Below are positions 1-37,035 of a stretch of DNA of 37,431 nucleotides, one piece after another. The DNA lies in the IMG/VR virus record IMGVR_UViG_3300025120_000190, positions 1 through 37,431 of that record; one strand, 5' to 3'. Every line of letters begins with the position of its first letter. Within the stretch, counting starts at the first letter, position 1. The stretch comes from a virus. The notes beneath the pieces were generated by a model. The model ran no database searches. It saw only the letters and a list, made by a program, of their open reading frames with translations, and was not told where the DNA came from. Made by a program: the position numbers and the translations under genes.

Positions 1-1734
1 TGAACCTGAGTTACCTGATGAACCTGATGAACCTGAGTTACCTGAAGAACCACTTGAACCATCATCACCTGAAGAACCACTTGAACCTGAGTTTCCTGAT
101 GAACCTGATGAACCTGAGTTACCTGAAGAACCACTTGAACCATCATCACCTGAGGAACCACTTGAACCTGATGAACCTGAGTTACCTGATGATCCACTTG
201 AACCTGAGTTACCTGATGAACCTGATGAACCTGAGTTACCTGAAGAACCACTTGAACCATCATCACCTGAAGAACCACTTGAACCTGAGTTACCTGATGA
301 ACCTGATGAACCTGAGTTACCTGAAGAACCACTTGAACCATCATCACCTGAAGAACCACTTGAACCTGATGAACCTGAGTTACCTGATGATCCACTTGAA
401 CCTGAGTTACCTGAAGAACCACTTGAACCATCATCACCTGAAGAACCACTTGAACCTGAGTTACCTGATGAACCTGATGAACCTGAATTACCTGATGAAC
501 CTGAAGAACCACTTAAACCTGATGACCCACTTGAACCTGAGTTACCTGATGAACCTGAAGAACCACTAATACCTGATGACCCACTTGAACCTGAGTTACC
601 TGATGAACCTGAAGAACCACTAATACCTGATGATCCACTTGTACCTGTGATACCTGATGAACCACTTGTTCCTGATGAACCTGATGAACCTGAAGCACCT
701 GAAGAACCTGATGAACCTGAGTTTCCTGATGAACCTGAGCTACCTGAGTTTCCTGATGAACCGCTTGAACCATCTGTTCCTGATGAACCTGAAGTTCCTG
801 ATGAACCTGAGTTACCTGATGAACCTGATGAACCTGATGAACCATCTGTTCCTGAAGAACCTGATGTTCCTGAAGAACCCGAAGCACCTGAAGAACCTGA
901 TGAACCTGTTTTACCTGATGAACCTGATGAACCTGATGAACCATCAGTTCCTGAAGAACCTGATGAACCTGAGTTACCTGATGAACCTGATGAACCTGAG
1001 TTACCTGAAGAACCACTTGAACCTGAGTTACCTGAAGAACCACTTGAACCTGAATCACCTGATGAACCGCTTGAACCATCTGTTCCTGATGAACCTGAAG
1101 AACCTGATGAACCTGTTTTACCTGATGAACCTGATGAACCTGATGAACCATCAGTTCCTGAAGAACCTGATGTTCCTGAAGAACCCGAAGCACCTGATGA
1201 ACCTGATGAACCTGAGTTACCTGATGAACCTGATGAACCTGAAGCACCTGATGAACCACTTGAACCTGAATTACCTGAAGAACCACTTGAACCTGAGTTA
1301 CCTGAAGAACCGCTTGAACCATCTGTTCCTGATGAACCTGAAGAACCTGATGAACCTGTTTTACCTGATGAACCTGATGAACCTGATGAACCATCTGTTC
1401 CTGAAGAACCTGAAGAACCTGATGAACCTGTTTTACCTGATGAACCTGATGAACCTGATGAACCATCTGTTCCTGAAGAACCTGATGTTCCTGAAGAACC
1501 CGAAGCACCTGATGAACCTGATGAACCTGAGTTACCTGATGAACCTGATGAACCTGAGTTACCTGATGAACCACTTGAACCTGAATTACCTGATGAACCT
1601 GATGAACCATCTGTTCCTGATGAACCTGATGAACCTGAAGAACCTGACGATCCTGATGATCCTGATGATCCGCTTGAACCATCTGTTCCTGATGAACCTG
1701 ATGAACCACTTGAACCTGATGAACCTGAAGTACC
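1..1734 (-). repeat. Collagen-like tract 7 (at least 578 residues, continues past the left edge)
   Basis: Longest Gly-X-Y tract in the window. Towards the left edge the triplets become more uniform, with alternating GSS, GNS and GDD. Three copies of the GAS-marked block lie near 870, 1174 and 1490, which indicates internal duplication. Confidence 0.9.
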
Positions 1735-4700: not shown

Positions 4701-7700
4701 CATCTACTTTATTGACATATACAGACGTTACTATAGGGTATAAATTAGTTCCTGTAGCTATCTCTCCACTAGATGGAGTAGTTGTTGTAGATGTAGTTAT
4801 ATCATACTCAAAACATTGTGATGATGATAATCCTGATGAACCACTTGAACCTGAAGTTCCTGATGAACCTGATGAACCTGATGAACCTGATGAACCATCT
4901 GTACCTGAAGAACCACTTGATCCTGATGAACCTGATTCACCTGAAGAACCTGAAGAACCTGAAGAACCACTTGAACCATCATCACCTGAAGAGCCTGAAG
5001 AACCACTTGAACCATCTGTTCCTGATGAACCTGATGAACCTGATGATCCTGAAGAACCATCATCACCTGAAGAACCTGAAGAACCACTTGAACCATCTGT
5101 TCCTGATGATCCTGATGAACCTGATGAACCTGAATTACCTGAAGAACCGCTTGAACCATCTGTTCCTGAAGAACCTGAAGTACCACTTGATCCTGATGAA
5201 CCACTTGATCCTGATGAACCTGATGTTCCTGAAGATGTATAACCACAAATTACTAAACTAGCTCCTTGTGCTAAATTTGTAAATGAACCACTTACATAAG
5301 TTACTCCTATTTGAGTTCCAGATGTTGCTAAATAAGTATAATTAGCTATATTCCCATTAGGATCTTGTATTGTAATTACATCACCTACTGATAAACCATT
5401 TAATATTAAAAATAAAGGAGTTGAGGTGCTTACAAATTGTAATCTAGCAACAGCACTAGCTATTAATGTTGAATTATTACTACTATCTAAAAGATCTACT
5501 TGATCTGTTCCTGTTGGATTGGTTGTAAGTTTAACTGTTGAACAACCTCCTCCTTCATTACAACATTGACTAAAAACACAAGTAGTAACAGTATCTCCTT
5601 GATTAGCCCCTGTAAAAGAACCTGATATATAACTTACGTTTATAGCTGTGGAAGAAGGCTGTCCTAATATTGTAAAAGTAGCAGTACCCCCATTAATTGT
5701 TATTTCTATTATAGAGCCAGTACTTACACCAGCAAGTAATTGTAAAGTTGGATCGTTTGCACCATTAAAAGTTAGTTGAGTAACTAAATTAGCTGCAAGT
5801 GTTGCTGATCCATTGCTTTGTAGCATTATAATTTTTCCAGCTGACATTCCAGATACAGCTGCTACATTTGTACTACATGCACCACTTAAACCATCTACTC
5901 CCGATGAGCCTGATGTACCTGAAGAACCATCTGTTCCTGAAGAACCTGATGTACCTGAAGAACCTGAAGAACCTGAAGAACCTGAAGAACCATCTGTTCC
6001 TGAAGAACCTGATGTACCTGAAGAACCTGAAGAACCATCTGTTCCTGAAGAACCTGATGAACCATCTGTACCTGATGAACCACTTGATCCTGATGAACCT
6101 GAAGTTCCTGAAGAACCGGAATTACCTGATGATCCTGAAGAACCTGAAGTACCACTTGATCCTGATGAACCATCTGTACCTGATGAACCTGATGAACCTG
6201 ATGAACCTGATGAACCTGATGTTCCGGATGAACCTGAATCACCTGAAGAACCTGATGAACCATCTGTTCCTGATGAACCTGATGAACCTGATGAACCTGA
6301 AGTACCATCTGTTCCTGAAGAACCTGATGAACCTGAAGTTCCTGAGCTACCTGAGGTACCATCTGCCCCTGCACTTGTAAAACATACAGAGTATGTACCT
6401 GTTTGAGCATTATTATTAATAAATACATCAAGAAATGTTAATGTAAATACGAAATCACCATTACCGTTTACACTAACTGCAGTTATTTGGTAGTCTGCAC
6501 CTCTTCCATCTGAAGATTTAGTTAATTTAATACGTCCCGTTTGACTATTTACATATTGTGAAAGAAATATAGATTTATCATCACCATTACTATCAATTTT
6601 ATCAAATATAAATGATGAAATGCTACCAAAAAGAACTGCATTTCCAGCAAATTCTCCACTTGCTGGGTTAGTAGTTCCTGATGTTACTAAATCATATTCC
6701 ATACATTCTGATGCACTAATACCTGATGATCCTGAAGTACCTGATGAACCTGATGAACCACTTGATCCTGATGAGCCACTTGATCCTGATGAACCGTCTG
6801 TACCTGAAGATCCTGATGAACCTGATGAACCTGAGGAACCTGAATTACCTGAAGAACCACTTGAACCATCTGTTCCTGAAGAACCTGATGTACCTGATGA
6901 ACCTGAAGAACCTGAAGAACCCGAATCACCTGAAGATCCTGATGAGCCATCTGTTCCTGATGAGCCACTTGAGCCATCCGTTCCTGATGAACCTGATGAA
7001 CCTGATGAACCTGAATCACCTGAAGAACCTGATGAACCATCTGTTCCTGAAGAACCACTTGAACCATCTGTTCCTGATGAACCACTTGAACCATCTGTTC
7101 CTGATGAACCTGATGAACCTGAAGTTCCTGAAGAACCTGAGTTACCGGATGAACCTGATGAACCATCTGTTCCTGATGAACCTGATGTTCCTGATGAACC
7201 TGAATTACCTGAAGATCCTGATGAACCGTCTGTACCTGAAGACCCACTTGAACCATCTGTACCTGATGAACCTGATGAACCTGAAGTTCCTGAAGAACCT
7301 GATGAACCATCTGTTCCTGATGAACCTGAAGAACCATCTGTTCCTGATGAACCTGATGAACCTGATGAACCTGAATTACCTGAAGATCCTGATGAACCGT
7401 CTGTACCTGAAGAACCACTTGAACCATCTGTTCCTGAAGAACCGGATGTTCCTGAAGAACCTGAATCACCTGAAGAACCACTTGAGCCATCTGTTCCTGA
7501 AGAACCACTTGAACCATCTGTTCCTGATGAACCTGAAGAACCATCTGTTCCTGATGAACCTGAAGTACCTGAAGAGCCACTTGAACCATCTGTTCCTGAA
7601 GAACCACTTGAACCTGATGAGCCTGATTCACCTGATGATCCTGATGATCCATCTGTTCCTGATGAACCTGAAGAACCATCTGTTCCTGATGAACCTGATG

Positions 7701-15542: not shown

Positions 15543-17573
15543 TTACAGGCTGTTTAATCCTGAAACGTAAATTCTACCATAAAATTCTGGTCTTAACATC
15601 TTCTTAGCGTAACGAGTTAATAAACCTTTTCTTGGAGTGAAGGTTGTTGGATCGTAAACTAATGGAGTCATGATTAATGGAATATATGGAGAGAATACAG
15701 CACCTGCTTCCAAGAACTGACCACCTCTGTATCCTAATAGGATCGTGTTGTCTGTCATGTAAGGGTTTTTGTAAACTTGATATCTACCATTCATTGAACC
15801 AGCTTTCTGTACACCAAATGCGTAGCTCATTTTAGCAGCATCACCATCTGAGTTACTAGCAAATCCTGGAATAGATTCGATAATAGTAGCTACTGTTGGA
15901 GAACATACCATGAAATTCGCTCCACCTCTAAGTGTTCTTTGGTGAATGATGTTACTTAACTTCTGAACTTTAGTTCCTAAAGTTTGGAACCACTGTCCTT
16001 GTGAGTTAAAGAAGCCTAAATTCGCTCCAGCACCCGCAGCAGTAATTGTTGCGTTGTTAGTAGCACTCCAGTACTCATCACCAGCACCAGCATCTTCGAT
16101 TAGCATTGCAAGAATTTCTTGATCAATTTCTAATGAAATATACTCACTCATGATTGAAGTTAATTCAGCTTCAGCATCTAAAGAATGATAAGCATTTAGA
16201 TCTTGAGCGAACTCAGGCGTCCAAACAGCTTTCAATTTTTTAGTTTTAGCTACGATAGCTTCACTTCTCATTTGTACATTAATCTCTGGAATAGCGATTG
16301 GTTGGTTAGCAGCATTTAATGCAACGTTACCATCTTCAAAATCACCTCTGTTATTGTCAGTAGGTTGTAGAGTTTGTAAAATAGTAGTTGTTGCAGCTGG
16401 AGCAATTTGTGAACCAGCAACACAGAAGAAAGAAATTATTCCATCTACTCCTCTAACGTCTGCAGCAGCTGCAGCACCTAAAGTAATTACAATTGCTCCA
16501 GCACCTGCACCTGCATTTGGTCTAGAAGCAACTGAGAAAGTTACTGTATCACCAGCAACATATCCAGATCCTGGGTTGTTAACAATCATCCCAGTAGTAG
16601 CACCACCAACAGCTACCAAAAAGTCAACTGTTAAACCAACACCAGCAACAGAAGTTGTAGCAGTAGGGGCAATGTTATTATCCGCACCACCAGCAGTACC
16701 AGCAGAGTCAGTAGTAATATCACCAGCTGGAACTGTTGAAACACCAGCAGCAGGAGTTGGGAAATAAGCACCTGAACTTAATTTAGTAAATGCTGGGTAT
16801 TGTCTTGATCCATCAGCTGGAAGCGTAGCTGCTCCACCTAAATAAAATCCTTGAATAGCCGTTGCATCATAGTTAGCATCTAATACAGTAGCTAAAAAGT
16901 TAACCTTTTCAACATTTGCAACTGTATCTGTACCAGTAAATGTAAATGCTGAGTCAGCATTCATATCTCTGTAGAAATTAGCGTTACCAACATTGTAAGT
17001 AGTAGCAGCTAAAGCACCTGAAACTAAGTTTTGAGTTGAATATCCAAATCTACCAGCTCCATATAAACCACCTGCAGCCGCGTTACCGAAACCACTAGTG
17101 TTTGTTGGAACTGCATCTGGAGATGCTGTACCATATAAAGATTGTCCAATTGTAAATGGATTCTTTTGAGTATTTCCTGCTGTTTCTGGTGAACCTACGT
17201 TAGTTCCACCATATTGGAAATCTAGATAAAATACTAGACCTGAAGGAAGATTCATTGGCTGAACCGAAACGAATTCTTTCGCTGCGATTTGTCCAAATAC
17301 CTTTCTTACCAATGGTAAAGCAACACCAGCCCACTGACCTGCAGGACCGTTACCAGCTGTAAATGTAGCTGATCCACCACCTGTTTGAGTGTTCTCTGTT
17401 ACTAATTGTTTTGCTTGGTTTTCCAAGATCATAGACATATTGTTTTTGTCTTGCTCGGATCCCATGCCTTCTAATAGACCTGTTTTGGCCCATTTAGCGC
17501 TTAACCTTGCAGAATCACTTTGTAGTGATTTGTAAGTGTTTGCACTTTCTAATAATGAATTTAATTGTGACAT
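15543..17573 (-). CDS. gp23: Major capsid protein (gp23-like) with inserted domain
   Basis: A 676-residue protein; T4 gp23 is 521. The N-terminal core-facing region (1-60) ends QAKQLVTE|NTQ, matching where T4 gp23 is cut by gp21 (after residue 65). WAGVALPLVRKVFGQIAAKE and FVSVQPMNLPSGLVFYLDFQ (81-120) are the hallmark gp23 segment. INVQMRSEAIVAKTKKLKAV (431-450) and MLRPEFYGRIYVSGL near the end are also typical. Residues about 270-395 form a Gly/Ala/Thr-rich extra domain with NPGSGYVAGDTVTFSV, likely exposed on the capsid surface. The gene has more GC-rich codons than its neighbours, as expected for the most abundant protein. It follows gp22 after 35 bases and is closed by a strong terminator. 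The leader is A/T-rich without a clear ribosome binding site. Confidence 0.95.
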   Translation of the reverse strand: MSQLNSLLESANTYKSLQSDSARLSAKWAKTGLLEGMGSEQDKNNMSMILENQAKQLVTENTQTGGGSATFTAGNGPAGQWAGVALPLVRKVFGQIAAKEFVSVQPMNLPSGLVFYLDFQYGGTNVGSPETAGNTQKNPFTIGQSLYGTASPDAVPTNTSGFGNAAAGGLYGAGRFGYSTQNLVSGALAATTYNVGNANFYRDMNADSAFTFTGTDTVANVEKVNFLATVLDANYDATAIQGFYLGGAATLPADGSRQYPAFTKLSSGAYFPTPAAGVSTVPAGDITTDSAGTAGGADNNIAPTATTSVAGVGLTVDFLVAVGGATTGMIVNNPGSGYVAGDTVTFSVASRPNAGAGAGAIVITLGAAAAADVRGVDGIISFFCVAGSQIAPAATTTILQTLQPTDNNRGDFEDGNVALNAANQPIAIPEINVQMRSEAIVAKTKKLKAVWTPEFAQDLNAYHSLDAEAELTSIMSEYISLEIDQEILAMLIEDAGAGDEYWSATNNATITAAGAGANLGFFNSQGQWFQTLGTKVQKLSNIIHQRTLRGGANFMVCSPTVATIIESIPGFASNSDGDAAKMSYAFGVQKAGSMNGRYQVYKNPYMTDNTILLGYRGGQFLEAGAVFSPYIPLIMTPLVYDPTTFTPRKGLLTRYAKKMLRPEFYGRIYVSGLNSL

Positions 17574-17608: not shown

Positions 17609-18859
17609 TTAACCGTTGATAATACCTGCCAATTTCTGGAAGCGCATTACCATTTCATCTGATTCTACAATAGGTTTTTTACTTGGAGCTTTTGGAGTTG
17701 ATATTGATTTTGAAGCTCTACCTAAATTTTCATTTATGTGTTTTTTAGTTGAATTGAATCCTGTGTTAACAGTTTCAAATACTAATTTTGCTTCTTTTAC
17801 AGTACCAGCTTTGTCAAATGCTTCTAATACTTTTACCTTTTGAGATTCGTTTAAATTTTTAGATTTAAAGATTTTATTAGTATAAAGTAACTTAGCGTTT
17901 AATAAATTGATTTCATTTAACTCAGATCTTAAAGTCTTAACAGTTTCATAAGCTTCTGCTAATTCTTCTTTCATCTTAGAATCACCTGCAAATTTTCTTT
18001 TACCATCAGCTTTCTCCATGTTTTCAGAATCAGCTCTACGTTGTTTCATGTCTTGCTTTTTCTTACCATGTTTAGCGCCTTCAGCATCGTCTAATCGTGC
18101 ATCGTACCCTTGTTTTTCATCAATTTCTTCTTTTGCTTCGTCCAATTCAACGTCAACCGCAGTTTCCATATCATCTTCTACTTCTACTTCTCCATCTTCA
18201 TCTACATCCACATCAACGTCATCTTCGAATGATTCACCAGCTTCTAATTCGCCAGCTCCTACCATGTCTTCAATTACGTCTTCAATGAATTTTTTAAGAT
18301 CCTCTTCAGACATATCTTCAAGGTCGATATCTTCGTCCTCATCTTCAATGTCTTCTTTTTCGTCCTTTTCACCGTCTAAGTAGCCTTCTTCTTCAGCATC
18401 AGTACGTTCGTCCTCTTTCAAGTCCTCTTTTTCGTCCTTCATACCGTCTTTGTAGCCTTCTTCTTCAGCGTCTGTACGAGCATCTTCTTGTAATTCTTTG
18501 TCCAACTCTGCTAAAATTTCATCTAATTCAGATACATCTTCCTCTTTGATTTTACGCATTTTTTCTGCGTCAGCTTCTGCTTTGTTATCGCTTTTACGAT
18601 CATCGCCTTCTGCCTTTTCCTTTTTGGTCATGTATTCTTTTTTTTCCGAAATTTCTGCATCATCTTTCTTTGCTTCGTCTACTTTATCTTCTACAGCTTC
18701 ATCCATATCCTCTTTATCCATTTCTTCTAACTTTGCAGCTAGCATAGATTTGATTTGTGGTTGAAACGCTTCTTCTAAAGCAATCTTAGCATTTGCAATG
18801 GCTGATTCTTTTACAGTCTTTGCATCGGCGATAGCCTCTTTTAAAAAGTTTCTGTTCAT
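17609..18859 (-). CDS. gp22: Prohead scaffold protein (gp22-like)
   Basis: A 416-residue, highly acidic Lys/Glu/Asp-rich protein, positioned between protease and capsid genes as in T4. Such scaffolds fill the prohead core and are degraded by gp21. Residues 128-146 and 152-170 are near-identical repeats (RTDAEEEGY(K/L)DG(M/E)KDEKED). Residues 172-260 are almost entirely Asp/Glu/Val. A coiled-coil helix follows (about 307-370). The N-terminus MNRNFLKEAIADAKTVKESA is amphipathic and is followed by ALEE|A, a candidate gp21 site. The C-terminus MRFQKLAGIING resembles that of the 214-residue protein at 36391-37035. It is longer than T4 gp22 (269 residues). An AAGGA ribosome binding site sits just before the ATG. 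Its 180-base leader carries two hairpins. Confidence 0.92.
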   Translation of the reverse strand: MNRNFLKEAIADAKTVKESAIANAKIALEEAFQPQIKSMLAAKLEEMDKEDMDEAVEDKVDEAKKDDAEISEKKEYMTKKEKAEGDDRKSDNKAEADAEKMRKIKEEDVSELDEILAELDKELQEDARTDAEEEGYKDGMKDEKEDLKEDERTDAEEEGYLDGEKDEKEDIEDEDEDIDLEDMSEEDLKKFIEDVIEDMVGAGELEAGESFEDDVDVDVDEDGEVEVEDDMETAVDVELDEAKEEIDEKQGYDARLDDAEGAKHGKKKQDMKQRRADSENMEKADGKRKFAGDSKMKEELAEAYETVKTLRSELNEINLLNAKLLYTNKIFKSKNLNESQKVKVLEAFDKAGTVKEAKLVFETVNTGFNSTKKHINENLGRASKSISTPKAPSKKPIVESDEMVMRFQKLAGIING

Positions 18860-19039: not shown

Positions 19040-19648
19040 TTATATTATAGGACATGACCCATTAGCACATAATATTTCTGTGATAATATTATTTACTTTG
19101 GTATATGGGTTTTTTTGTTGAATTTCGATTCCTTCTTTTACTAAATGCATAAATGAATCTGGATTTGAGGGTGTTGAAACAAAATCCCAACATAGTAATT
19201 CGAAGTCATCTTGTACTTCTTGTACTTCACCCATTGGTTTTAAACTTCCCATTCCACGAGAAGATACTCCAACTGTAATTCCACTTTCAACTAATGCTTT
19301 TAAAATATTTCCACATGGAGTAGGTAATATTTCTATTTTACCCATTACATTATCTCCATCCCACCACATATCAGCTATATTATGTGATACATTTTGTAAA
19401 TTAATAATAGTACTATCTGGGTGGTCTAATTCACCCATTGCTCTATTTTCATCTACTAATACTCTATACTTGTCAATTTCTCTTTCCCATAAATCTTTAG
19501 AATAATATCTACCATTACCGTTTTTTACTTCGGCGGTAGCTAATATTCCTTCAACTAATGGATTACCTCTTTTAGAAATATTATTTTCTGATAAGGAGGT
19601 CGGCATGGCTGTGAATAGCCTTGTTTCAACAAGTACTTGCTTACTCAT
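19040..19648 (-). CDS. gp21: Prohead core protease (gp21-like)
   Basis: A 202-residue serine protease of the T4 gp21 family (herpesvirus assemblin-like fold). Key blocks are VEGILATAEVKNGNGRYYSK (32-51), MGELDHP (71-77, catalytic His76) and ITVGVSSRGMGSLK (124-137, catalytic Ser within SSRG). It cleaves scaffold, capsid and internal proteins inside the prohead at (L/I)xE-type sites, then itself, allowing DNA packaging. Length matches T4 gp21 (212). The start at 19648 has a weak leader, and the gene follows the 365-residue gene after 3 bases. A terminator follows it, so protease and scaffold levels could be set separately. Many proteins in this window carry matching cleavage sites near their N-termini. 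Confidence 0.95.
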   Translation of the reverse strand: MSKQVLVETRLFTAMPTSLSENNISKRGNPLVEGILATAEVKNGNGRYYSKDLWEREIDKYRVLVDENRAMGELDHPDSTIINLQNVSHNIADMWWDGDNVMGKIEILPTPCGNILKALVESGITVGVSSRGMGSLKPMGEVQEVQDDFELLCWDFVSTPSNPDSFMHLVKEGIEIQQKNPYTKVNNIITEILCANGSCPII

Positions 19649-26015: not shown

Positions 26016-26605
26016 TATTTATTTCCTATTTTCCAATATAATCTACCAGATATTACAGGTTGGAAATTTTGATTAACTCCTAATCCTAACCCATACATTT
26101 GTTTTTTCTTATTTTTGTATAATAATTCACCTCCAACATAATTTAACTGGTCTGATCTTCCTTGTATTCCTATACCCCAATAAAATTCTCTATTATTTAG
26201 ATAAATTTCTTCAGTTATAGTTGTTGTAGGTATTAAAATATTGGATTCAACTGCTCTTTTCCAAACTGTATTTTTATATATAGTATCTGTTATTGTTATA
26301 ATACCTAAAGAATCTAAATCAATTTCATCTATAAAAACATTTTTAGCATAATAATCTTTTAATACTTCTAAAGTATCAATAGGGGTATTAATTAAAATAG
26401 AATCTATTTGAGTAACAATTTTAGTTTTCCATTTAGGAACATATACTTCTTTTACAACATTTATAGTATCCCACTTAGTTTCTGTTTTTGTAATAATTTT
26501 AGGCTCAGTAATAGTTTTCCCCCCACCACATGACCTCATAAAAAAGATAATAGCCACTAATGCTACAATAAGTAGCGTTTGAATATTTTTAAAGAAGTCC
26601 TTCAA
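26015..26605 (-). CDS. Membrane-anchored protein of unknown function
   Basis: A 196-residue protein. Residues about 9-23 (QTLLIVALVAIIFFM) form one N-terminal transmembrane segment, followed by RSCGGG with a cysteine at residue 26. The sequence before the Cys is a poor lipobox but could be a divergent lipoprotein signal. The next region is beta-rich with Thr/Ile/Val alternation (TKTETKWDTINVVKEVYVPK) and the C-terminal 60 residues (REFYWGIGIQGRSDQLNYVG onwards, ending SGRLYWKIGNK) have amphipathic strands and a glycine-aromatic pattern reminiscent of outer-membrane barrels or a compact beta domain. Similar proteins occur in Bacteroidetes phages. It overlaps its upstream neighbour by 17 bases and gp17 by one. 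A lysis (spanin-like) or envelope role is possible but unproven. Confidence 0.7.
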   Translation of the reverse strand: MKDFFKNIQTLLIVALVAIIFFMRSCGGGKTITEPKIITKTETKWDTINVVKEVYVPKWKTKIVTQIDSILINTPIDTLEVLKDYYAKNVFIDEIDLDSLGIITITDTIYKNTVWKRAVESNILIPTTTITEEIYLNNREFYWGIGIQGRSDQLNYVGGELLYKNKKKQMYGLGLGVNQNFQPVISGRLYWKIGNK

Positions 26606-27062
26606 TCTCTTTTTTAATTTTTGTTAAAGTTTTAAGTCTATCCTTTAACTTTTCTTTTTCACTACCTTCAGCATCTTTCCATTTTTTAGCTGTGGATTTT
26701 AATTCTGCTGATGTTTGTTGTAGTTTAGAAGCTAATTTTGATATAGAGTCTCCCTTTTTAGCAGATTTCATTGCTTTTTTATCCATATCATCTTCATCTT
26801 CATCCTCAAACACAGCTGTAGGGGCAACTGGGATATTGTATTTATCTATTGTTTGATCGTCATATTTATGATCTACATAACCATCATCTTGGAATTGGCC
26901 TGTATCATTTCCTTCTCCTAATCCTAAATCTTTAGTTAATTGAGCTGTTTTTTCTAATTCAGCATTATAATCTTGTTGGGCCTTAACATCTTCTTTAGAT
27001 GCTTCTTCTAAAATATCAAGTATTTCTTCTTTTATAGCCTTTTTAAATTCTGATCTTTTCAT
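26589..27062 (-). CDS. Candidate prohead core/internal protein
   Basis: A 157-residue acidic and lysine-rich protein. The N-terminus MKRSEFKKAIKEEILDILEE followed by ASKED is an amphipathic helix with LEE|A at residues 18-21, a gp21-type site. It closely resembles MKKSELKEIIKANFLSE of the 214-residue protein at 36391-37035. The middle has an acidic EDEDEDDMDKKAMKSAKKGD stretch, and the C-terminus is a coiled coil (about 110-157). This composition fits a scaffold or core protein that enters the prohead and is trimmed. It starts a run with the membrane protein and terminase genes, and an ATATTTATA motif lies 16 bases upstream. No enzymatic motif is seen. Confidence 0.75.
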   Translation of the reverse strand: MKRSEFKKAIKEEILDILEEASKEDVKAQQDYNAELEKTAQLTKDLGLGEGNDTGQFQDDGYVDHKYDDQTIDKYNIPVAPTAVFEDEDEDDMDKKAMKSAKKGDSISKLASKLQQTSAELKSTAKKWKDAEGSEKEKLKDRLKTLTKIKKEIEGLL

Positions 27063-29754: not shown

Positions 29755-30246
29755 TTAATAATCATCTTCATCATCATAATAATCATCATAATCATCTTCT
29801 TCATATGTATCGTCTTCAAATTCAGCATCATAATCAAACATATCACCTGCTGTATTTTTAGTATACTTACCTTGTTTAGCTTCAATATGAGATAAAATAT
29901 GTTCTAAAGCATCCTCAATAGTTTCTTCATAATTAGTTCCGTTTTTAAATATCATGTTCATAGCTGATCTTACACCTGTGTTGGCATTAACTAAGAACGA
30001 ATGAGCTGGTCCTACTGTTTCAGTACCATATCCTGTCGTATACTCATCTCCATCATTATAATAGCGATAAACAATTCTATTAATAGCTCTTAACATTTCA
30101 CCTTCCATAGTATCTGATTTGCCAGATCCTGCTACCAGTTCATCATAAAGAGGTTGGTTTCTATCATCTAAGTCTTTACTTACAAATTCTTTAATTTGGG
30201 TTAGCTTGCTTTCAGCTAAATATTTTTTATAATCAAAATTTTCCAT
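29755..30246 (-). CDS. Candidate internal (prohead-targeted) protein with acidic tail
   Basis: A 163-residue protein. The N-terminus MENFDYKKYLAESKL carries LAE|S at 10-12, a strong gp21-type cleavage site inside a peptide like the T4 capsid-targeting sequence (which has a KTYQEFIAEA pattern). The body (about 30-130) is helical with conserved-looking VGPAHSFLVNANTGVRSAMN. The C-terminal 25 residues are Asp/Glu/Tyr only (YDDYYDDEDDY). It is the last gene before the terminator at 29661-29694. Expected to be packed in the head; function after release unknown. Confidence 0.75.
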   Translation of the reverse strand: MENFDYKKYLAESKLTQIKEFVSKDLDDRNQPLYDELVAGSGKSDTMEGEMLRAINRIVYRYYNDGDEYTTGYGTETVGPAHSFLVNANTGVRSAMNMIFKNGTNYEETIEDALEHILSHIEAKQGKYTKNTAGDMFDYDAEFEDDTYEEDDYDDYYDDEDDY

Positions 30247-30250
30247 ATTA

Positions 30251-30466
30251 TTATATTTTTTGTCCTATATATCTTGTAGATGTACACTCTGACATTATTA
30301 TTTCCCCAAATTCATCAACCCCAGCATCATAAGTATATGAACTATCTGGGTGGTATTCATTTCCACATCCCTCACATTTAAAGGGGGTAAAAATTACAGG
30401 AGGAAAAGGATCTAATGTATTTTCTCCTTTATTATTTCCCCATGCAAATTCATCTTCCCAACTCAT
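30251..30466 (-). CDS. Small cysteine-containing protein of unknown function
   Basis: A 71-residue acidic protein. FKCEGCGNEYHPDSS carries a CxxC pair followed by His, with a third Cys in MSECTST further on, so a small zinc site is conceivable, though a full four-ligand set is not obvious. It is positioned between two candidate internal proteins with 3-4 base gaps. The start MSWEDEFAWGNNKG lacks the lysine-rich targeting peptide of its neighbours. Confidence 0.65.
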   Translation of the reverse strand: MSWEDEFAWGNNKGENTLDPFPPVIFTPFKCEGCGNEYHPDSSYTYDAGVDEFGEIIMSECTSTRYIGQKI

Positions 30467-30469
30467 TAT

Positions 30470-30868
30470 TTAGTCTCTTGAGTCATATGAATCATCATTA
30501 CCTGGGTCTGCTAATTCTTTAGCAGCTATAATTGCTTGTTCTAAACCATCATGTACAGCATCACTACCTATATGATAAAATTGATCTTTCATTTCTTCAA
30601 CATGAGCTACAAATTCAATTATTTCATCCATAGTAGGCATATTCCAAACACCTTCTTTTATGTGACTTGGTTTCATTCCTAATTTAGCAGCAGCACTTTT
30701 AACTCCATCTCTAGGTTCTTCTTCTTTGTCTTTTTTAGCTTCATAAGCTGCTTTAACACTTTCTAATGTAGGTAATGCTTCACCTGATTTTCTGGTATCA
30801 TACCCAGGTGCGTTCTCATTTAATAGTGTTTTATTACTTATAAATTTTTTTAAATTAAAATTATCCAT
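30470..30868 (-). CDS. Candidate internal (prohead-targeted) protein
   Basis: A 132-residue protein. The N-terminus MDNFNLKKFISNKTLLNENA has LNE|N at 16-18, matching the (L/I)xE site of gp21 substrates, and its first nine residues align with MENFDYKKY of the 163-residue neighbour. The middle is Lys/Glu-rich (AAYEAKKDKEEEPRDGVKSA) and the C-terminal half helical (residues about 75-120). There is no catalytic motif. It is probably cut and packaged in the head like T4 internal proteins. The leader is A-rich without Shine-Dalgarno. Confidence 0.75.
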   Translation of the reverse strand: MDNFNLKKFISNKTLLNENAPGYDTRKSGEALPTLESVKAAYEAKKDKEEEPRDGVKSAAAKLGMKPSHIKEGVWNMPTMDEIIEFVAHVEEMKDQFYHIGSDAVHDGLEQAIIAAKELADPGNDDSYDSRD

Positions 30869-30888
30869 TTTTCTATTTTTTTATTATT

Positions 30889-31248
30889 TTATTGACCTCT
30901 CCCGAATTCGAAAGCAATTCCAAACTCTTGGCCTACCTCTTCTAATACATCTGATGGGTCTATTCCTGTGTCTCTAATCATTTGAATTATTTCACCTATT
31001 ACTTGGCCCGATCTTTTATCTGTACCTGCAGCACCAAAGCTTTCTTCAGCTAATTTTAATTGACCCTCATCATATTCAACTTCCTCACCATCTGATTTTT
31101 TAACGCTATATGCATTAATTTTAGAGCCAAACATTCTACGTGAATCAGTAACTTCCATTTCATCACCTCCACTTTTCATAGTTACTTTATCTCCTACTTT
31201 AAATTTCTCTTCATTAAGAAATTCTCTAAATGTTTTTAATTCTTTCAT
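30889..31248 (-). CDS. Candidate internal protein with KOW-like domain
   Basis: A 119-residue protein. The N-terminus MKELKTFREFLNEEKF is the closest match here to the T4 capsid-targeting peptide (MKTYQEFIAEA), with LNE|E at 11-13 as the expected cut. Next, KVGDKVTMKSGGDEMEVTDS and a later YSVKKSDGEEVEYDEGQL suggest a small SH3/KOW-like beta barrel (about 16-65). The C-terminal region (70-119) is helical and acidic. It starts after a 60-base gap following the small cupin-like gene. Packaged-protein status is inferred. Confidence 0.75.
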   Translation of the reverse strand: MKELKTFREFLNEEKFKVGDKVTMKSGGDEMEVTDSRRMFGSKINAYSVKKSDGEEVEYDEGQLKLAEESFGAAGTDKRSGQVIGEIIQMIRDTGIDPSDVLEEVGQEFGIAFEFGRGQ

Positions 31249-31308
31249 TTTTTTTATTTTTTACAATAACCTAAGCAAACTTGCTTGAAAGTTATATAAT
31301 ATATTATA

Positions 31309-31626
31309 TTACAAATTAATTTTTTCATTTTTGTAAATTTTCAAATTTAATACTCCTGTTCCTTTAATGACTCTATGCCATTTATGTCTAGGTATAAATA
31401 TACGTTCTTGAAGTGAAGTCGGCAAGGAATTATCTAATTGTAACTTCCAATCAGTATTGCCTATAATTTCAACTACTCTATCTTCATCATCACGATGCCA
31501 GAGTAATTCTATAGGATCAATGGTTTCCGAAAATTGTCTTAGAGTATAATTATCTGTAACTTCTAAGTCAATATAAGGTTTACCAGAATCCTGAGAAGCT
31601 TGATTTAAGTCCGAGTAATTTTGCAT
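31309..31626 (-). CDS. Small cupin-like protein
   Basis: About 105 residues, starting at the internal ATG 31626 (MQNYSDLNQASQDSGKPYID). A longer frame upstream to 31725 exists, but that part overlaps the neighbour by 146 bases and is Lys/Arg/Val-rich and unlike a real N-terminus. The core PIELLWHRDDEDRVVEIIGN, WKLQLDNSLP and RIFIPRHKWHRVIKGTG is the single-cupin pattern (HxD near the front and a second His in WHRVIKG) of small proteins found in many marine phages. It may bind a metal or sugar. It overlaps the end of the 390-residue gene by 47 bases. The start is uncertain. Confidence 0.65.
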   Translation of the reverse strand: MQNYSDLNQASQDSGKPYIDLEVTDNYTLRQFSETIDPIELLWHRDDEDRVVEIIGNTDWKLQLDNSLPTSLQERIFIPRHKWHRVIKGTGVLNLKIYKNEKINL

Positions 31627-32752
31627 AACGTGGTAATCTACAACTCCAATATCCAGCTTTTGTTCTATCTTTTTTAGACGAACATTTATGACGAGCAGCA
31701 AACGCCGCACGTGCTTTTGAGTCATTTATTTTAGCTCTTAAACCACCAGATCCAAATCTGACAGTTTTAATTTTTTTAGTTTTAGGATCCTTAACGTATA
31801 CTTTATATGCTTTACCACCTGATGATGAACGCATTGGTTTTCCTATTGGTCTATTGTCTTTTTTCTTAGCTTTTTTCTTTTTAGCTTCGTTTAATGATTC
31901 ACTTATGTCAAAATGGCTACTAAGATTATTTTTAAATATATCAAAATCACTTCTATCAAAGGCTAATATTTGACCATTATTTAAATTTCTATAAACACCT
32001 TTTCCACCTTGTTCTTGGCCTGTATATCTCCACATTCCACTTGAGATAGAGGTATCTTGGTATTTTATGTTTTTATTTAAATCAAAATTTGGATATTTAG
32101 AATCTGATTCGTTTAATTGACTTCTTAAAAGTGATTTCCAATTAACCATTATTTGAGCCACTCCTTTTATAAACTCCGGATTTTTTAAATCACCCTTAAA
32201 TTTACCAAATAATGCTCTTAATTCTTCTTTAAATTCAGATACTGATCCTGTTGGTTCGAATGGAATAGAATCTGGATCCTCTGGGTTTCTATTAAAACCA
32301 CTATAACGGGTGACTTCATTCATAGACATATTGTCCATTTCATCACGAACCCATTCTTTTTCATTATCACCTAATTGATCATAATCCATTCCGAATTCCA
32401 TATTTGCTAATTCATCTTCAAGATCCATGTGTTCATTTAATTCAATAGGAAAATCTAATGGTACTTTTTTACCTTCAAACATTCCAAAATGACCTAAATT
32501 AGTTTCTGTAAGTAAAGCTTTATCATCTTCATTGGTAAATTCTAAAATACCTCTACTATATAATGATCTTGCTTCTGCAAATAAATCAAAGTAAGCACGT
32601 GAGCCAGCACGATATAAATGCTCAGTAAGCGGTTTATTAGTGTCTATATGGTGTTTTAAACCTTCGGACAATATAGCCTTCGGAGCTTTGCTCTCATTAA
32701 GTACTAACGCAGTACTTTTAGTTTCACACGTATCACATCCACATTTACACAT
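31580..32752 (-). CDS. Candidate internal protein with DUF5872-like C-terminus
   Basis: A 390-residue protein. The N-terminus is MCKCGCDTCETK, four cysteines in eight residues, then LVLNE|SKAPKAILSE|G (about 16-30), two gp21-type sites. The middle is acidic and helical. The last 100 residues switch to strongly basic: KKKKAKKKDNRPIGKPMRSS, then KAYKVYVKDPKTKKIKTVRF, RAAFAARHKC, GYWSCRLPRYAKLLGL and a terminal FSGFW. This basic tail matches the DUF5872 pattern of T4-like marine phages (YKVYVK..KTK.IK.V.FG ... GYWSCRLPRY), with conserved Cys and His. A DNA-binding packaged protein is plausible. It shares a one-base gap with the 373-residue gene and overlaps the small cupin by 47 bases. Confidence 0.75.
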   Translation of the reverse strand: MCKCGCDTCETKSTALVLNESKAPKAILSEGLKHHIDTNKPLTEHLYRAGSRAYFDLFAEARSLYSRGILEFTNEDDKALLTETNLGHFGMFEGKKVPLDFPIELNEHMDLEDELANMEFGMDYDQLGDNEKEWVRDEMDNMSMNEVTRYSGFNRNPEDPDSIPFEPTGSVSEFKEELRALFGKFKGDLKNPEFIKGVAQIMVNWKSLLRSQLNESDSKYPNFDLNKNIKYQDTSISSGMWRYTGQEQGGKGVYRNLNNGQILAFDRSDFDIFKNNLSSHFDISESLNEAKKKKAKKKDNRPIGKPMRSSSGGKAYKVYVKDPKTKKIKTVRFGSGGLRAKINDSKARAAFAARHKCSSKKDRTKAGYWSCRLPRYAKLLGLKSSFSGFW

Positions 32753-32753
32753 A

Positions 32754-33875
32754 TTATTTCATTATTTCGTTGTATGATAATTCTACTTTATCACCTGTTA
32801 AACTGCCATTTCTATATAATAAATTTTCAGGTTGAACTGTTGCTCTTAATCCTCCTGTAGCTTTACGAGTAGAATCATGTCTAATATTTAAAACAGGTTC
32901 GGCATTAAATTCCTCAACATCTCTCATATCTTCTATAATTTTAGAAACTTCTACTTTAATTGTATCTCCTTCTAAACTAAAATCTTTAGGGGAATATGTT
33001 CTATAAATTACAACAGCATCGTCAGATCCAAATATTATAGACTCTTCATCTTTGGATGGTAAATCTGTAACAATAACACCTGTTACTTTTCTATCAGTAC
33101 CTTCATTATACATAATATTGATACCATCTTTTACATTACCTAATTTATCTTTAAAAGGTTTAAAAGTTAATTCAGGAGCAAAGTCTCCTCTTTTTATTTT
33201 TTCTGATAATTTGGCAACTACATCTTTATATCTTGTATCTGAGCTTTCCCAAAAACCAGCATTATCTTTTTTAATTGAAATAGGATAATCTTTATCACCT
33301 TTTAAAACAACATCTGCTTTTTTACCACCAGCTACATCATATCCTACATCAAAAACTTCTTTAATTCCTTTAGTAGCATAATTTTTATTTGAACCTACAA
33401 ATACTACATTTTTAGGACCATCTTCAAGATATTTTCTTAATTCATTAGATAATATATCTTCATTTTCAGTACCAGCTGATGCTCTACCTTGAGCATTTGA
33501 GGGTTTTAATAAAAATACTGCACCTTTATATAATACAGCCCCCATTGAAGAACCTTTAGAATTTGGATCAAATGTAAAATCTTCTAAAGCATCCATTTTT
33601 TGAGCATAATCAAAACGTTCTGATCTTGGAACTAATACTTTATATCTAGTACCTGATACTTTTTTAAAATCCTCATCTTTAAATTCAAATTTATCTTTAA
33701 GAACTTCTATACCTTCTTCAGCATCTGTAACTTCATTAATTATAGTAAATTTTTTACCTATTAATTTAGATATTTCTGATTCTAGTAACAAAACATCCTG
33801 ATCATTATTCATGTCAGGATATCCTTTAGGAAACTTATATGCAATCCTATTTAAATATTTTGTAATTACATCCAT
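32754..33875 (-). CDS. Putative PD-(D/E)XK nuclease-like protein
   Basis: A 373-residue protein. Residues 130-205 carry a pattern seen in restriction-endonuclease-like phage proteins: GRASAGTENED (130-140, acidic helix), KKADVVLKGDKDYPISIKKD (185-204), then AGFWESSDTRY. The ADVV strand followed by (I/S)xK resembles the PD-(D/E)XK core (Asp188 and Lys202), with Ser200 where Glu is usual, so activity is uncertain. The N-terminal MDVITKYLNRIAYKF is amphipathic; the LLLESE stretch at 29-34 may be a cleavage site. The C-terminal half is beta-rich. It could be a DNA-cutting or DNA-binding protein carried in the head. It shares a TAATG overlap with the 151-residue gene. Confidence 0.65.
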   Translation of the reverse strand: MDVITKYLNRIAYKFPKGYPDMNNDQDVLLLESEISKLIGKKFTIINEVTDAEEGIEVLKDKFEFKDEDFKKVSGTRYKVLVPRSERFDYAQKMDALEDFTFDPNSKGSSMGAVLYKGAVFLLKPSNAQGRASAGTENEDILSNELRKYLEDGPKNVVFVGSNKNYATKGIKEVFDVGYDVAGGKKADVVLKGDKDYPISIKKDNAGFWESSDTRYKDVVAKLSEKIKRGDFAPELTFKPFKDKLGNVKDGINIMYNEGTDRKVTGVIVTDLPSKDEESIIFGSDDAVVIYRTYSPKDFSLEGDTIKVEVSKIIEDMRDVEEFNAEPVLNIRHDSTRKATGGLRATVQPENLLYRNGSLTGDKVELSYNEIMK

Positions 33876-34330
33876 TATATATCTATGTCTGTTGTGTCAT
33901 CAATATCAACATCTACTTCTTCACCCCCACTATCAGATGAACCCCCATCAGCAGATTCTGCTGTTTCAGGAGCACCATATCGTAAAATACGAGCAATAGC
34001 ATCAATAGCTCTTTCTTCTTCTGGTAAATTAAGTAAGTAATATTTTTTACCTTCAACTTGAGCTATCCAACTTGTTCTTGTAAATATTAGATAAAAATTA
34101 AAGTCGTTTTTTAAATTAATTCTAAATGTAGTAGGTTTTGGAGCAACCCAATCAATTGATGCTATAAAATTATCAAATTCATGAGTTAATAAATCAACTA
34201 TTACTTTTTTTAGTTCTGGGAATTTGGCAAACTCATCATACTCAACAGCAGCTGCTTCAGCTTGTTTTCTGTTACCAACGAGAGTTGGAACAAGTAATCT
34301 AACTTTTTCCCTTAATTCTGCCGCTGTCAT
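33875..34330 (-). CDS. Hypothetical protein with acidic C-terminal tail
   Basis: A 151-residue protein beginning MTAAELREKVRLLVPTLVGN. Residues 40-105 contain alternating beta strands (TTFRINLKNDFNFYLIFTRT, then KKYYLLNLPEEERAIDAIAR). The last 30 residues are Asp/Ser/Gly/Val-rich (GEEVDVDIDDTTDIDI), similar in bias to other proteins of this block. I do not recognise a family. It lies 1 base from the 618-residue gene and shares a TAATG overlap with the nuclease-like gene. Confidence 0.7.
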   Translation of the reverse strand: MTAAELREKVRLLVPTLVGNRKQAEAAAVEYDEFAKFPELKKVIVDLLTHEFDNFIASIDWVAPKPTTFRINLKNDFNFYLIFTRTSWIAQVEGKKYYLLNLPEEERAIDAIARILRYGAPETAESADGGSSDSGGEEVDVDIDDTTDIDI

Positions 34331-34331
34331 A

Positions 34332-36188
34332 TTATTTTTGTTTTGCTGTTGGACCTTTTCCTCCGCCTTTTGCTTTATAAGATGCTACTGCACCCGCAAT
34401 AGCTTTTGCTGCTTTTTCTGATTTACCTGATTTTTTAATTTTATTTACTAATGTATCATATGATTCATCTACTTTACCATCTTGATCTTCATCTTTAGCA
34501 TCTATTTTTTTATCCCAAAATCCTTTAGGTAAACCTTCAGCTATACTTTCACTAAATGATTTCATCCATCTAGTTAATATTTCTCTAGCTTCTCTTTTTT
34601 CTAAATCAAATGCAGACTGTAAATAAGGAGCAGCACCAAACATATTGGTTTTACCTGAATCTCTTAAATCATTTAAAAATTTAAAATATAAATCATCTGA
34701 CATATGTTCTTCTAATGAAGTAGATTCATTTACTTTAGCATCTGGGTAATATTCTGCAGGTCCTATTCTTAATTTACTTTTATCAGTAACACCTGTATCA
34801 AACCAAGATCTAATAGCATCATCAACATTTCCACCACCTAAGAAAAAGCTTAATAAACCTTCTAAACCTTTAGAACCTTCTGCTATAAAAGCATCAAATT
34901 CTTCTTCACTATCCCACTCAAATTTATCATCTGATGTAAATTGATATGTTGGTTTATTTTGTAAATTAGACATTGCAAATGCAGTTCCACTACCACTATG
35001 ACCTCCAAAATGTGATTCTTTAAGAGATACAACATCCTTAGATGGTGTTTCTTTATATTTAAAATAAATAGCATATCTTTTTTTATTACCATTATAATCT
35101 TCTAAATATATTTCTTTTTTAGCAAATGCTTTTCCGTTGTAGGCACGGCGCCATTTATTCATATTCATAGCTTCTGTTATGTTTTCTTCAGTTAAATCAT
35201 CTACAGATGTAATGTAATCTTCAACGGTCTCGTCAATATCAACACCATCTATGGCTTCTACACTGTCATTGTTTATAACGCGTGTATTTGCGTCAACTAC
35301 GGCATCAATTTGTGGTTCGTTAAGTTCAAAATCAAGGTATTCTTGAGCACCAACTACAGCCTCTTTTGCCTTGAATATTTTACTTTGCCACCATGAAGGT
35401 AAATCTACTTCACCCATACCATCAAATTGATCTAAGGTTTTATATAATTGCATAGATGCTTTACCAATTTGATATAAATCACCTTTAATCATACTAGGTT
35501 CATTATCTTCATGACCTAAGTCTAAATCTTCATTTAATCTATCAACAATATCTTTAAAGGCAGCATCCTTATCACCTTTATATAATTGTTTAACAATTCT
35601 TTTACCTAATATCTCTAACTCACCATTATTTAATGAGTGAGGTCTATTAAAACCTTCTAAATATCCTGATCCAATTATAACTAAATCTTCATCTGGGTTG
35701 TCTAAATCTTCTTCTTCGTACCCAAAATCCTCTTCATCATTTGCTTTAACTCTTGGGGGTAAAGGTTTTAATTCTAACTCTTCTTCTAAACCTAATACAG
35801 ATTCTTCTTCTGTATGATCCGGAGCTGCTGTAGTAACATCTAATTCTGCATCTATTGGATCACCATGAGCACCACTTTCTAAATCTTCCTCTTTGATATT
35901 TTTTTCAATAGCTGCTCCTCTGGTTTTTTCATAATCAGATAGCTTACCATCTTTATTCAAATCTGCTTTTTTAGGATTTTTTAATGCATCTTTAATTAAT
36001 TCTGTTATTTTAGGATCTCTCATTTCTTTGGTTTGTTTTTTAGCCATATTAGTAGCACGTCCGTACATAACAGCTTCTGCATCCTTACCATACTTTTTTA
36101 CTAGATCTCTTTTATTATCTTTCATATTCATGATAATATCTTCTCTTTTATTGAGTTCAGCCTTAGTAAGTTTGCGTTCGTTGATCAT
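34332..36188 (-). CDS. Large acidic protein with EF-hand-like motifs, probably head-internal
   Basis: A 618-residue protein. The N-terminus RKLTKAELNKREDIIMNMKD followed by a KKYGKDAEAVMYGRATNMAK stretch is one I associate with uncharacterised marine T4-like phage proteins. Residues 76-87 (DLNKDGKLSDYE) are a canonical EF-hand calcium loop, and DEDQDGKVDESY near 564-575 is a second, imperfect one (Tyr at position 12). A long acidic segment (about 105-190) includes EESVLGLEEELELKPLPPRV. The C-terminus ends SGKSEKAAKAIAGAVASYKA then a GPTAKQK basic tail, again recurring in phage proteins. Possibly a core or capsid-packaged protein that binds calcium. No catalytic site is seen. Confidence 0.75.
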   Translation of the reverse strand: MINERKLTKAELNKREDIIMNMKDNKRDLVKKYGKDAEAVMYGRATNMAKKQTKEMRDPKITELIKDALKNPKKADLNKDGKLSDYEKTRGAAIEKNIKEEDLESGAHGDPIDAELDVTTAAPDHTEEESVLGLEEELELKPLPPRVKANDEEDFGYEEEDLDNPDEDLVIIGSGYLEGFNRPHSLNNGELEILGKRIVKQLYKGDKDAAFKDIVDRLNEDLDLGHEDNEPSMIKGDLYQIGKASMQLYKTLDQFDGMGEVDLPSWWQSKIFKAKEAVVGAQEYLDFELNEPQIDAVVDANTRVINNDSVEAIDGVDIDETVEDYITSVDDLTEENITEAMNMNKWRRAYNGKAFAKKEIYLEDYNGNKKRYAIYFKYKETPSKDVVSLKESHFGGHSGSGTAFAMSNLQNKPTYQFTSDDKFEWDSEEEFDAFIAEGSKGLEGLLSFFLGGGNVDDAIRSWFDTGVTDKSKLRIGPAEYYPDAKVNESTSLEEHMSDDLYFKFLNDLRDSGKTNMFGAAPYLQSAFDLEKREAREILTRWMKSFSESIAEGLPKGFWDKKIDAKDEDQDGKVDESYDTLVNKIKKSGKSEKAAKAIAGAVASYKAKGGGKGPTAKQK

Positions 36189-36191
36189 ATC

Positions 36192-36362
36192 TTATTTTTT
36201 ATCCTCAGCTACAGATGCTTTTCTATACTCTGAAATTAATTTTTTAATTCCACCTAATGCTTTTCTAGCACGACCATGAGCCGCTTTAGATTTACCACTA
36301 TGCTCGATTGAAAATGTTTCATAAAGTGCATCTAACTGTTCTTTTAATTTTAATGTATCCAT
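36192..36362 (-). CDS. Small basic protein (56 residues)
   Basis: An ATG at 36362 to TAA at 36192. The protein MDTLKLKEQLDALYETFSIE continues HSGKSKAAHGRARKALGGIK and KLISEYRKAS, with an excess of Lys, Arg and His. It is histone-like in composition: two amphipathic helices joined by a basic HSGKSKAAHGRARKA segment, which could bind DNA. Three bases separate its stop from the 618-residue gene. Its leader is A/T-rich. Confidence 0.7.
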   Translation of the reverse strand: MDTLKLKEQLDALYETFSIEHSGKSKAAHGRARKALGGIKKLISEYRKASVAEDKK

Positions 36363-36390
36363 TTTTATAAATTTTATTTATTAATAACTA

Positions 36391-37035
36391 TTATTTAATT
36401 AATCCAGCTAATTTTCTGAATCTATTTACTTCTTCGTTAATTACTTCTTCTTTAATTTCTTCATTTGTTGAAGCCACAACGTGTGCTCTAGTATAATAAG
36501 TAATTGTATTTCCAATTTGATCCATTAACTTTTCATCTCCCATAGCAGATGCTTTTTCTTGTGCCTTAGTTAAAAGACCTAATACAGCTGCTGTATCACT
36601 ACTTTCTCCTGCTAATTCTGAATCTACTTCAATTTCTGATTTGTCAGATTCATCATCAATATTTACTTCATCTTCAATATCAACATTAATGTCTTCATTA
36701 TCTTCAACATCTACTTCTTCTGCTTCTCTCATTGTATCATCTTCTTCATACTTACCACGCATGCCTTCATCCATATCATCATCTCCACCTCTCATGGCTT
36801 CATCAACGTCATCCTTTTTCATTTCTTCAGAAACGTCTTTAGGTTCGTCTTTTTTTAATTTAGCTAATTTAGCTTCATTATCTTTAATGTCTTTTTCAAG
36901 GTCTTTAATATGGTCTCTATCATCACGGATAGCACCTTCCATACGTTTTTGTTCTTCCTTGTTTCCTTTTTTAGAATCTTCAGCCTCTGATAAGAAGTTA
37001 GCTTTGATTATTTCTTTTAATTCTGATTTTTTCAT
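36391..37035 (-). CDS. Scaffold-like acidic protein (candidate second core protein)
   Basis: A 214-residue, very acidic protein. The N-terminus MKKSELKEIIKANFLSE|AED has a gp21-type site at 15-17 and parallels MKRSEFKKAIKEEILDILEE of the 157-residue protein. Residues 30-65 form a coiled coil, then come short repeats (MRGGDDDMDEGMRGKYEEDD) and an Asp/Glu/Val stretch (VEDNEDINVDIEDEVNIDDE) like that in gp22. The C-terminus NRFRKLAGLIK mirrors the MRFQKLAGIING end of gp22. This suggests a gp22 paralogue or a core partner that docks at the same site. A TATAAATA late-promoter-like sequence lies 26 bases upstream of the ATG (37062-37069). Confidence 0.78.
   Translation of the reverse strand: MKKSELKEIIKANFLSEAEDSKKGNKEEQKRMEGAIRDDRDHIKDLEKDIKDNEAKLAKLKKDEPKDVSEEMKKDDVDEAMRGGDDDMDEGMRGKYEEDDTMREAEEVDVEDNEDINVDIEDEVNIDDESDKSEIEVDSELAGESSDTAAVLGLLTKAQEKASAMGDEKLMDQIGNTITYYTRAHVVASTNEEIKEEVINEEVNRFRKLAGLIK

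Follow-up and report, generated by a model that had tools for sequence, protein, structure and literature searches.

Interchangeable N-terminal leaders of the T4 capsid-targeting kind predicted on unrelated proteins of aquatic T4-like phages

Five proteins of a marine phage begin with short leaders that we consider, with high confidence, to be capsid-targeting sequences of the T4 kind, cut by a gp21-type protease and falling into several interchangeable classes. The stretch of DNA analysed (the window) comprises 37,431 bases and is an entire IMG/VR record (IMGVR_UViG_3300025120_000190), itself a fragment. Leaders, unrelated cargo, exchange of leaders between cargo, an LxE motif at the boundary and a protease gene can all be read directly from the sequences. 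Because these tags are interchangeable, end in a protease motif and cap hundreds of viral proteins, it is very likely that they label proteins destined for packing into the head and for trimming, and probably for delivery into the host together with the DNA.

In T4 the leader consists of the first 10 residues of IPIII, of which residues 4 and 7 are important for targeting and residues 8 and 10 for processing, and gp21 cleaves after L/I-x-E (PMC9026906). The three internal proteins of T4 have only the leader in common, and the type IV restriction enzymes that they block differ (PMC12373910). Since leader, processing and internal proteins have already been described for T4, the mechanism we propose is a known one; what look new are the interchangeable leader classes, the scale of the cargo, a scaffold-like leader and an apparent polyprotein cargo. 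In the prohead, the leader would bind the core (or the shell) and draw its cargo inside. The gp21-type protease would then cut after the glutamate of LxE to free mature cargo in the head, from which it could leave with the DNA. In the lineage of the window phage, leader classes have been swapped between cargo genes, and some cargo is fused into longer proteins with LxE joints. We infer packaging, cleavage and injection in the window phage, as well as the binding partner of the leader; by analogy, the tagged proteins may act early in infection.

Results and Discussion

The window comes from a T4-like myovirus and a relative of Flavobacterium phage immuto, with which its major capsid protein shares 64% identity across 64% of the protein. 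It codes for terminase, portal, a gp21-type protease and the major capsid protein. That gp21 is encoded here, as the initial annotation of this DNA had stated, was confirmed by a phrog_207 match (E=8.3e-59) of the prohead protease at 19040–19648 (minus strand), which we presume to be the enzyme that cuts the leaders. A gp22-like scaffold (17609–18859, minus strand) is assigned from its position between this protease and the gp23-like major capsid protein (15543–17573, minus strand, phrog_138). The N-terminal region of the gp23-like protein contains conserved LLE/S, GLLE/G, MILE/N and LV[TM]E/ motifs (the slash denotes the predicted cut) and is kept across relatives. A relative of 163,571 bases (G006) is colinear with the window but circularly permuted. 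Positions 1–8179 of the window include several long overlapping ORFs and match 27.3–34.9 kb of G006 in many offset registers, which points to long degenerate repeats, probably of a fibre gene.

Leaders were assigned to four classes. Type I follows the consensus MDNFDLKKYLAEG[KR]LLKE (also given as NFDLKKYLAEGKLLKE), type II MKKSELKQIIKEEIxKVLNE, type III the T4-type MKTFxEFIxE, and type IV RMQKLAGIITE, which copies the scaffold C-terminus. Scored with position-specific matrices built from viral leader scans, the five window proteins reached 16.4–30.1 bits, whereas the maximum among internal control windows (n=3,951) was 9.3, 7.0 and 10.9 bits for types I, II and III, respectively. As a control of the method, the same scan of T4 returned four ORFs, namely ipI, ipII, ipIII and gene 61.1; the ORF at 73591 is presumably ipI. 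Gene 61.1 (NC_000866, L102:18966–19130), annotated only as hypothetical, begins with MKTFKEFIKED, for which the T4-type matrix gives 24.6 bits, and its product is a candidate internal protein.

Lone LxE motifs are common, and short Lys/Glu-rich N-termini might resemble each other by chance. We regard this explanation as negligible, since the leader scores lie far above those of the internal controls, similar scores were not found among the internal positions sampled, and the type I pattern is found in at least 120 viral stretches but in only two small contigs of a much larger collection of bacterial and archaeal genomes (257 Gb). One of these two contigs holds a relative of the 30470 protein and is therefore probably misbinned phage. 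By our own arithmetic, a uniform-base model predicts well below one chance match to this pattern.

The best-scoring leader (30.1 bits) is that of a 163-residue type I tagged cargo at 29755–30246 (minus strand). It reads MENFDYKKYLAE/SKLTQIKE/, with residues 1–12 at 30211–30246 and a second LxE at residue 20. In orthologues the leader has the canonical form MxNFDxxKYLAEGKLLNE/, and it is at the second LxE that the cargo begins. The AlphaFold2 model of this protein has a mean pLDDT of 52. The second type I cargo (132 residues, 30470–30868, minus strand, 16.4 bits) begins with MDNFNLKKFISNKTLLNE (residues 1–18 at 30815–30868), while its orthologue in G006 begins with MDKFNLKKFLGEKSLLNE; its C-terminal domain is found under type II leaders in L225, L267 and L271. 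The type III cargo at 30889–31248 (119 residues, minus strand, 23.5 bits) carries MKELKTFREFLNE (residues 1–13 at 31210–31248), which is similar to MKTYQEFIAE/A of T4 ipII and ipIII, and its C-terminal domain occurs under type I leaders in L136 and L161. The acidic type II protein at 36391–37035 (214 residues, minus strand, 23.1 bits) has the leader MKKSELKEIIKANFLSE (residues 1–17 at 36985–37035), and its cargo stands behind type I-like leaders in L198 and L099. Near the terminase gene, a 157-residue type II protein (26589–27062, minus strand, 25.3 bits) begins with MKRSEFKKAIKEEILDILEE (residues 1–20 at 27003–27062). Judged by eye against positions 4 and 7 of IPIII, aromatic residues are present in 30889 (F7/F10) and 29755 (F4/Y9) and absent from the type II leaders.

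All peptides listed in the initial annotation exist as written: YKKYLAE/S in 29755–30246, TLLNE/N in 30470–30868, FREFLNE/E in 30889–31248, ANFLSE/A in 36391–37035, DILEE/A in 26589–27062, VLNE/S in 31580–32752 and ALEE/A in the scaffold. The proposed leader logic holds for the five tagged N-termini, which score far above the null, but fails for VLNE/S, which follows a Cys motif with no leader, and ALEE/A is an internal site of the scaffold. The description as Lys-rich and amphipathic fits type II, while type I leaders carry a slight negative net charge (median −1).

Scans of IMG/VR with degenerate DNA patterns that were tied to the start codon found types I, II and III in at least 120 stretches each. 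These comprise at least 133 distinct proteins in at least 74 cargo clusters for type I, at least 117 in at least 82 for type II and at least 119 in at least 51 for type III; a directed scan for type IV found 58 proteins in 31 cargo clusters. Across all fetched viral loci, 684 leader-bearing ORFs group into 333 cargo clusters without detected mutual similarity, counts that are not frequencies since the loci were partly picked by leader. "Unrelated" here means no BLAST match at 1e-4, so that rapid divergence would inflate the number of clusters, and the scoring matrices let in some false positives. When an arbitrary 15-mer was used instead to retrieve 120 loci, scores above 13 bits were reached by 7 of 2,232 ORFs. 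A family beginning MKxxLKKLIKEAVKEAIxEELKxILLEA (134654 in G006, 81525 in immuto) scores as type II but is a single orthologue family and was not counted. Immuto, whose host of isolation is Flavobacterium sp. LMO8, has leaders at 1803, 102294, 102880, 103806, 113188, 117631 and 118632. With a 20-residue leader as query, tblastn returned no match in named phages, perhaps owing to the low-complexity filter. The leader strings were absent from the literature texts searched, a set that mostly excluded subscription papers.

The information content of type I leaders falls to background beyond residue 18–19, and an [LI]xE lies within residues 13–24 in 94% of the proteins with type I leaders and in 79% of those with type II leaders, compared with 2–10% in the next two 12-residue stretches. 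A single cargo can stand under different leader classes in different phages, with homology beginning right after LxE (1–7 residues past the glutamate in the clearest pairs); 19 of the 333 clusters have more than one class. For example, MNNFDLKKYLAEGRLLKE/DVSSRF pairs with MKELYRFRQFLTEGKIVKE/DVSSRF, placing DVSSRF directly behind type I and type III leaders, and the cargo IELNTSFLQSQDDFERGGDEG follows MDNFDLKKYLAEGKLFEE in L115 and MKKSQLKQIIKEEILKVLNE in L261. This exchange with type III, together with LxE, is the basis on which types I, II and IV are likewise predicted to act as T4-like leaders. Tagged genes are adjacent beyond chance in 5 of 7 genomes tested (P 0.0008–0.02). The G006 genome has the 30470/30889 pair at around 114 kb and a further type I gene (774) ahead of its 29755 orthologue, an arrangement that fits exchangeable cargo loci.

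Codon use at some leader positions differs from the rest of the same genes: at type I positions, F4 is TTC in 40% versus 13% and K14 is AAG in 53% versus 10%. This skew suggests that leaders spread by copying of DNA. The same position-specific skew would be expected of a selfish or regulatory DNA cassette that sits at start codons and encodes a peptide with no role. We find this very improbable: synonymous sites within the leaders still vary, the DNA upstream is merely A-rich, and different peptide classes replace each other with LxE retained.

A proxy for packaging is available from the T4-like cyanophage S-CREM2, for which 52 virion proteins with coordinates were identified by mass spectrometry (PMC10665884 Table 3). 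Five of these 52 virion proteins (ORFs 6, 13, 14, 136 and 154) have the pattern [FYL]xxF[ILMVF]xE in their first 12 residues, compared with none of the 156 other proteins (P=8e-4). Within 30 residues the counts are 7 of 52 and 1 of 156 (P=3e-4), and a stricter pattern, [FY]xxF[ILMV]xE, gives P=0.015. All four detected enzymes that are neither structural nor lytic (SAM hydrolase, kinase, cytidylyltransferase and Cas9-like) carry the pattern within 30 residues. Since the expression was chosen with the N-termini already known, though it follows the T4 leader, this comparison is supportive rather than blind. The text of the S-CREM2 report mentions neither targeting, nor N-terminal, nor propeptide (PMC10665884). 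The virion NMNAT of S-SCSM1 (PMC9602691) also begins with such a sequence, MKSFLQFLKE/A. The phrog_207 protease was detected in 18 of 23 tag-bearing IMG/VR records of at least 52 kb compared with 3 of 8 random records of at least 50 kb (size-matched P ~0.05 by our own arithmetic; 3 of 16 random records overall). Some tag-bearing IMG/VR records have no detected protease and are possibly fragments, and a scan of Microcystis phage Mel-JY01, which has the protease, gave no convincing leader.

The localisation of types I, II and IV is predicted from sequence, and these peptides could instead address a tail, a replisome or a host complex, with LxE being incidental. This we judge improbable, because LxE closes every class and cargo homology begins after it, type III is the leader already proven in T4, and virion proteins are enriched for leaders of the T4 type. 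We therefore retain the head as the predicted destination. The initial annotation had envisaged one shared targeting peptide with a gp21 site; recurrence on unrelated cargo, exchange between orthologues, near-absence from cellular genomes, the protease and the virion mass spectrometry of a T4-like cyanophage lend that idea good support, but several classes take the place of the one peptide.

The scaffold itself (17609–18859) contains 16 [LI]xE sites compared with 8.2 in shuffles (P=0.002), and its C-terminus, MRFQKLAGIING, reappears as the type IV leader. Among 11,792 ORFs, RMQKLAGII-like motifs are found only at C-termini (79 proteins, 72 of them in the scaffold cluster) or near N-termini (10); in the wider set of the directed scan, fifteen occurrences are internal or in cut ORFs. 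The typical start of the 58 type IV proteins is MKKQILSEEFxRMQKLAGIITE/, and six type IV clusters share cargo with other classes, mostly type I. The type IV leader may mimic a contact made by the scaffold.

Alternatively, the tagged proteins might chiefly be components of the prohead core or structure, like T4 gp67 and gp68, which would be targeted and cut without being host effectors. Two of them, 26589 and 36391, are acidic. The former, encoded near the terminase gene, has 49 distinct relatives, all with type II leaders among the matches listed, and the C-terminus of 36391, VNRFRKLAGLIK, resembles that of the scaffold. These two proteins may be core components rather than injected effectors. 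As a general account, this possibility appears doubtful to us, since most tagged families are accessory and variable, the cargo of the locus varies among relatives (as in G006), and zeta toxin and HAD are among the enzyme families to which a few tagged proteins show matches. Scans of PHROGs and Pfam gave no internal-virion-protein match for the proteins of the block. PADLOC matches of cargo were mostly weak and single and were left out of the evidence. By eye, the type II cargo at L239:8171–8842, GKQVGTLYHFTDVDALLGILKSNKM, looks like the N-termini of DarT or ADP-ribosyltransferase-like proteins; T4 Alt is a packaged ADP-ribosyltransferase. Proteins in L662 and L362 with T4-type leaders appear, also by eye, cytidylyltransferase/NMNAT-like and recur in other viral contigs.

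Leader-borne cargo recurs within longer proteins of other phages, and a probable fused cargo (a predicted polyprotein) with [LI]xE joints is found in the window. This 618-residue multi-domain protein without a leader (34332–36188, minus strand) contains the joint DRLNE(220)/DLDLGHEDNEPS, which matches the cargo behind the type II leader MKKSQLKQIIKEEISRMLKE in L282, and its residues 501–565 match a type I cargo of L111. Across 35 cargo clusters, [LI]xE directly precedes the domain start in 39% of cases on average, compared with 1.5% at random positions (P=0.0018), and lies within two residues in 51% compared with 7.8% (P=5e-4). ORFs called upstream of a leader, which inflate the result, were left out of these statistics.

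The proposal that the block at 29755–37035 is a set of cargo genes stands for 4 of its 11 ORFs (26589 lies outside), but the rest have no leader and the block is not uniform. ORFs 30251, 31309, 32754, 33875, 34332 and 36192 were scored without yielding a leader. The 390-residue protein at 31580–32752 (minus strand) has a Cys-rich N-terminus, and its VLNE/S was dropped as a leader since it comes after the CxCGCxxC motif. This LxE is kept in all 28 distinct homologues (shuffling predicts 12.8), and in three orthologues, including those in L208 and G014, the Cys motif is preceded by a type II leader. ORF 31309–31725 starts inside 31580 and has 53 distinct homologues; many of these align only from about residue 49, so that the true start may lie downstream of the called one. 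The untagged protein at 32754–33875 (minus strand) begins with a different module, KFPKGYPDMNNxQDxLLLE, which 29 proteins share and which is not an LxE leader; 29 of its 30 occurrences are in the first 40 residues, on 11 clusters. A small untagged Hc1-like (histone H1-like) protein at 36192–36362 (minus strand; PF07432, 29.8 bits, cut-off 23.5) is kept within the block in several relatives.

The closest known system is that of IPI, IPII and IPIII of T4 (PMC9026906, PMC3012670, PMC12373910), where a leader of 10–20 residues ending in (L/I)xE likewise precedes unrelated mature proteins and a gp21-type protease is encoded; the 30889 leader is nearly the T4 peptide. In contrast to T4, we find the additional classes I, II and IV, far more cargo families, type I cargo that is acidic rather than basic, and fused cargo with LxE joints. 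In phiKZ and SPN3US, head propeptides are cut after xxE by a gp21 relative and the paralogues gp53 and gp54 have an identical 15-residue N-terminus (PMC5694885), but several propeptides there exceed 100 residues, whereas those described here have 12–20 and are common to unrelated proteins. T4-like cyanophages have virion enzymes that begin with T4-type leaders (S-CREM2, PMC10665884; S-SCSM1, PMC9602691), with cargo other than that of the window.

Conclusions

We lean towards the broader reading that aquatic T4-like phages have a general address system for head entry, with at least four interchangeable leaders, one of them copied from the scaffold, hundreds of unrelated cargo families, swapping at tandem loci and polyproteins cut at LxE joints. 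The function of most aquatic phage genes is not known. A leader that can be read from sequence would predict which proteins are packed into the head and delivered first, as are the anti-restriction proteins of T4. Hundreds of uncharacterised families would thereby become a defined set of candidates for injected effectors, and natural leaders would be at hand with which to load proteins into the heads of phages outside E. coli.
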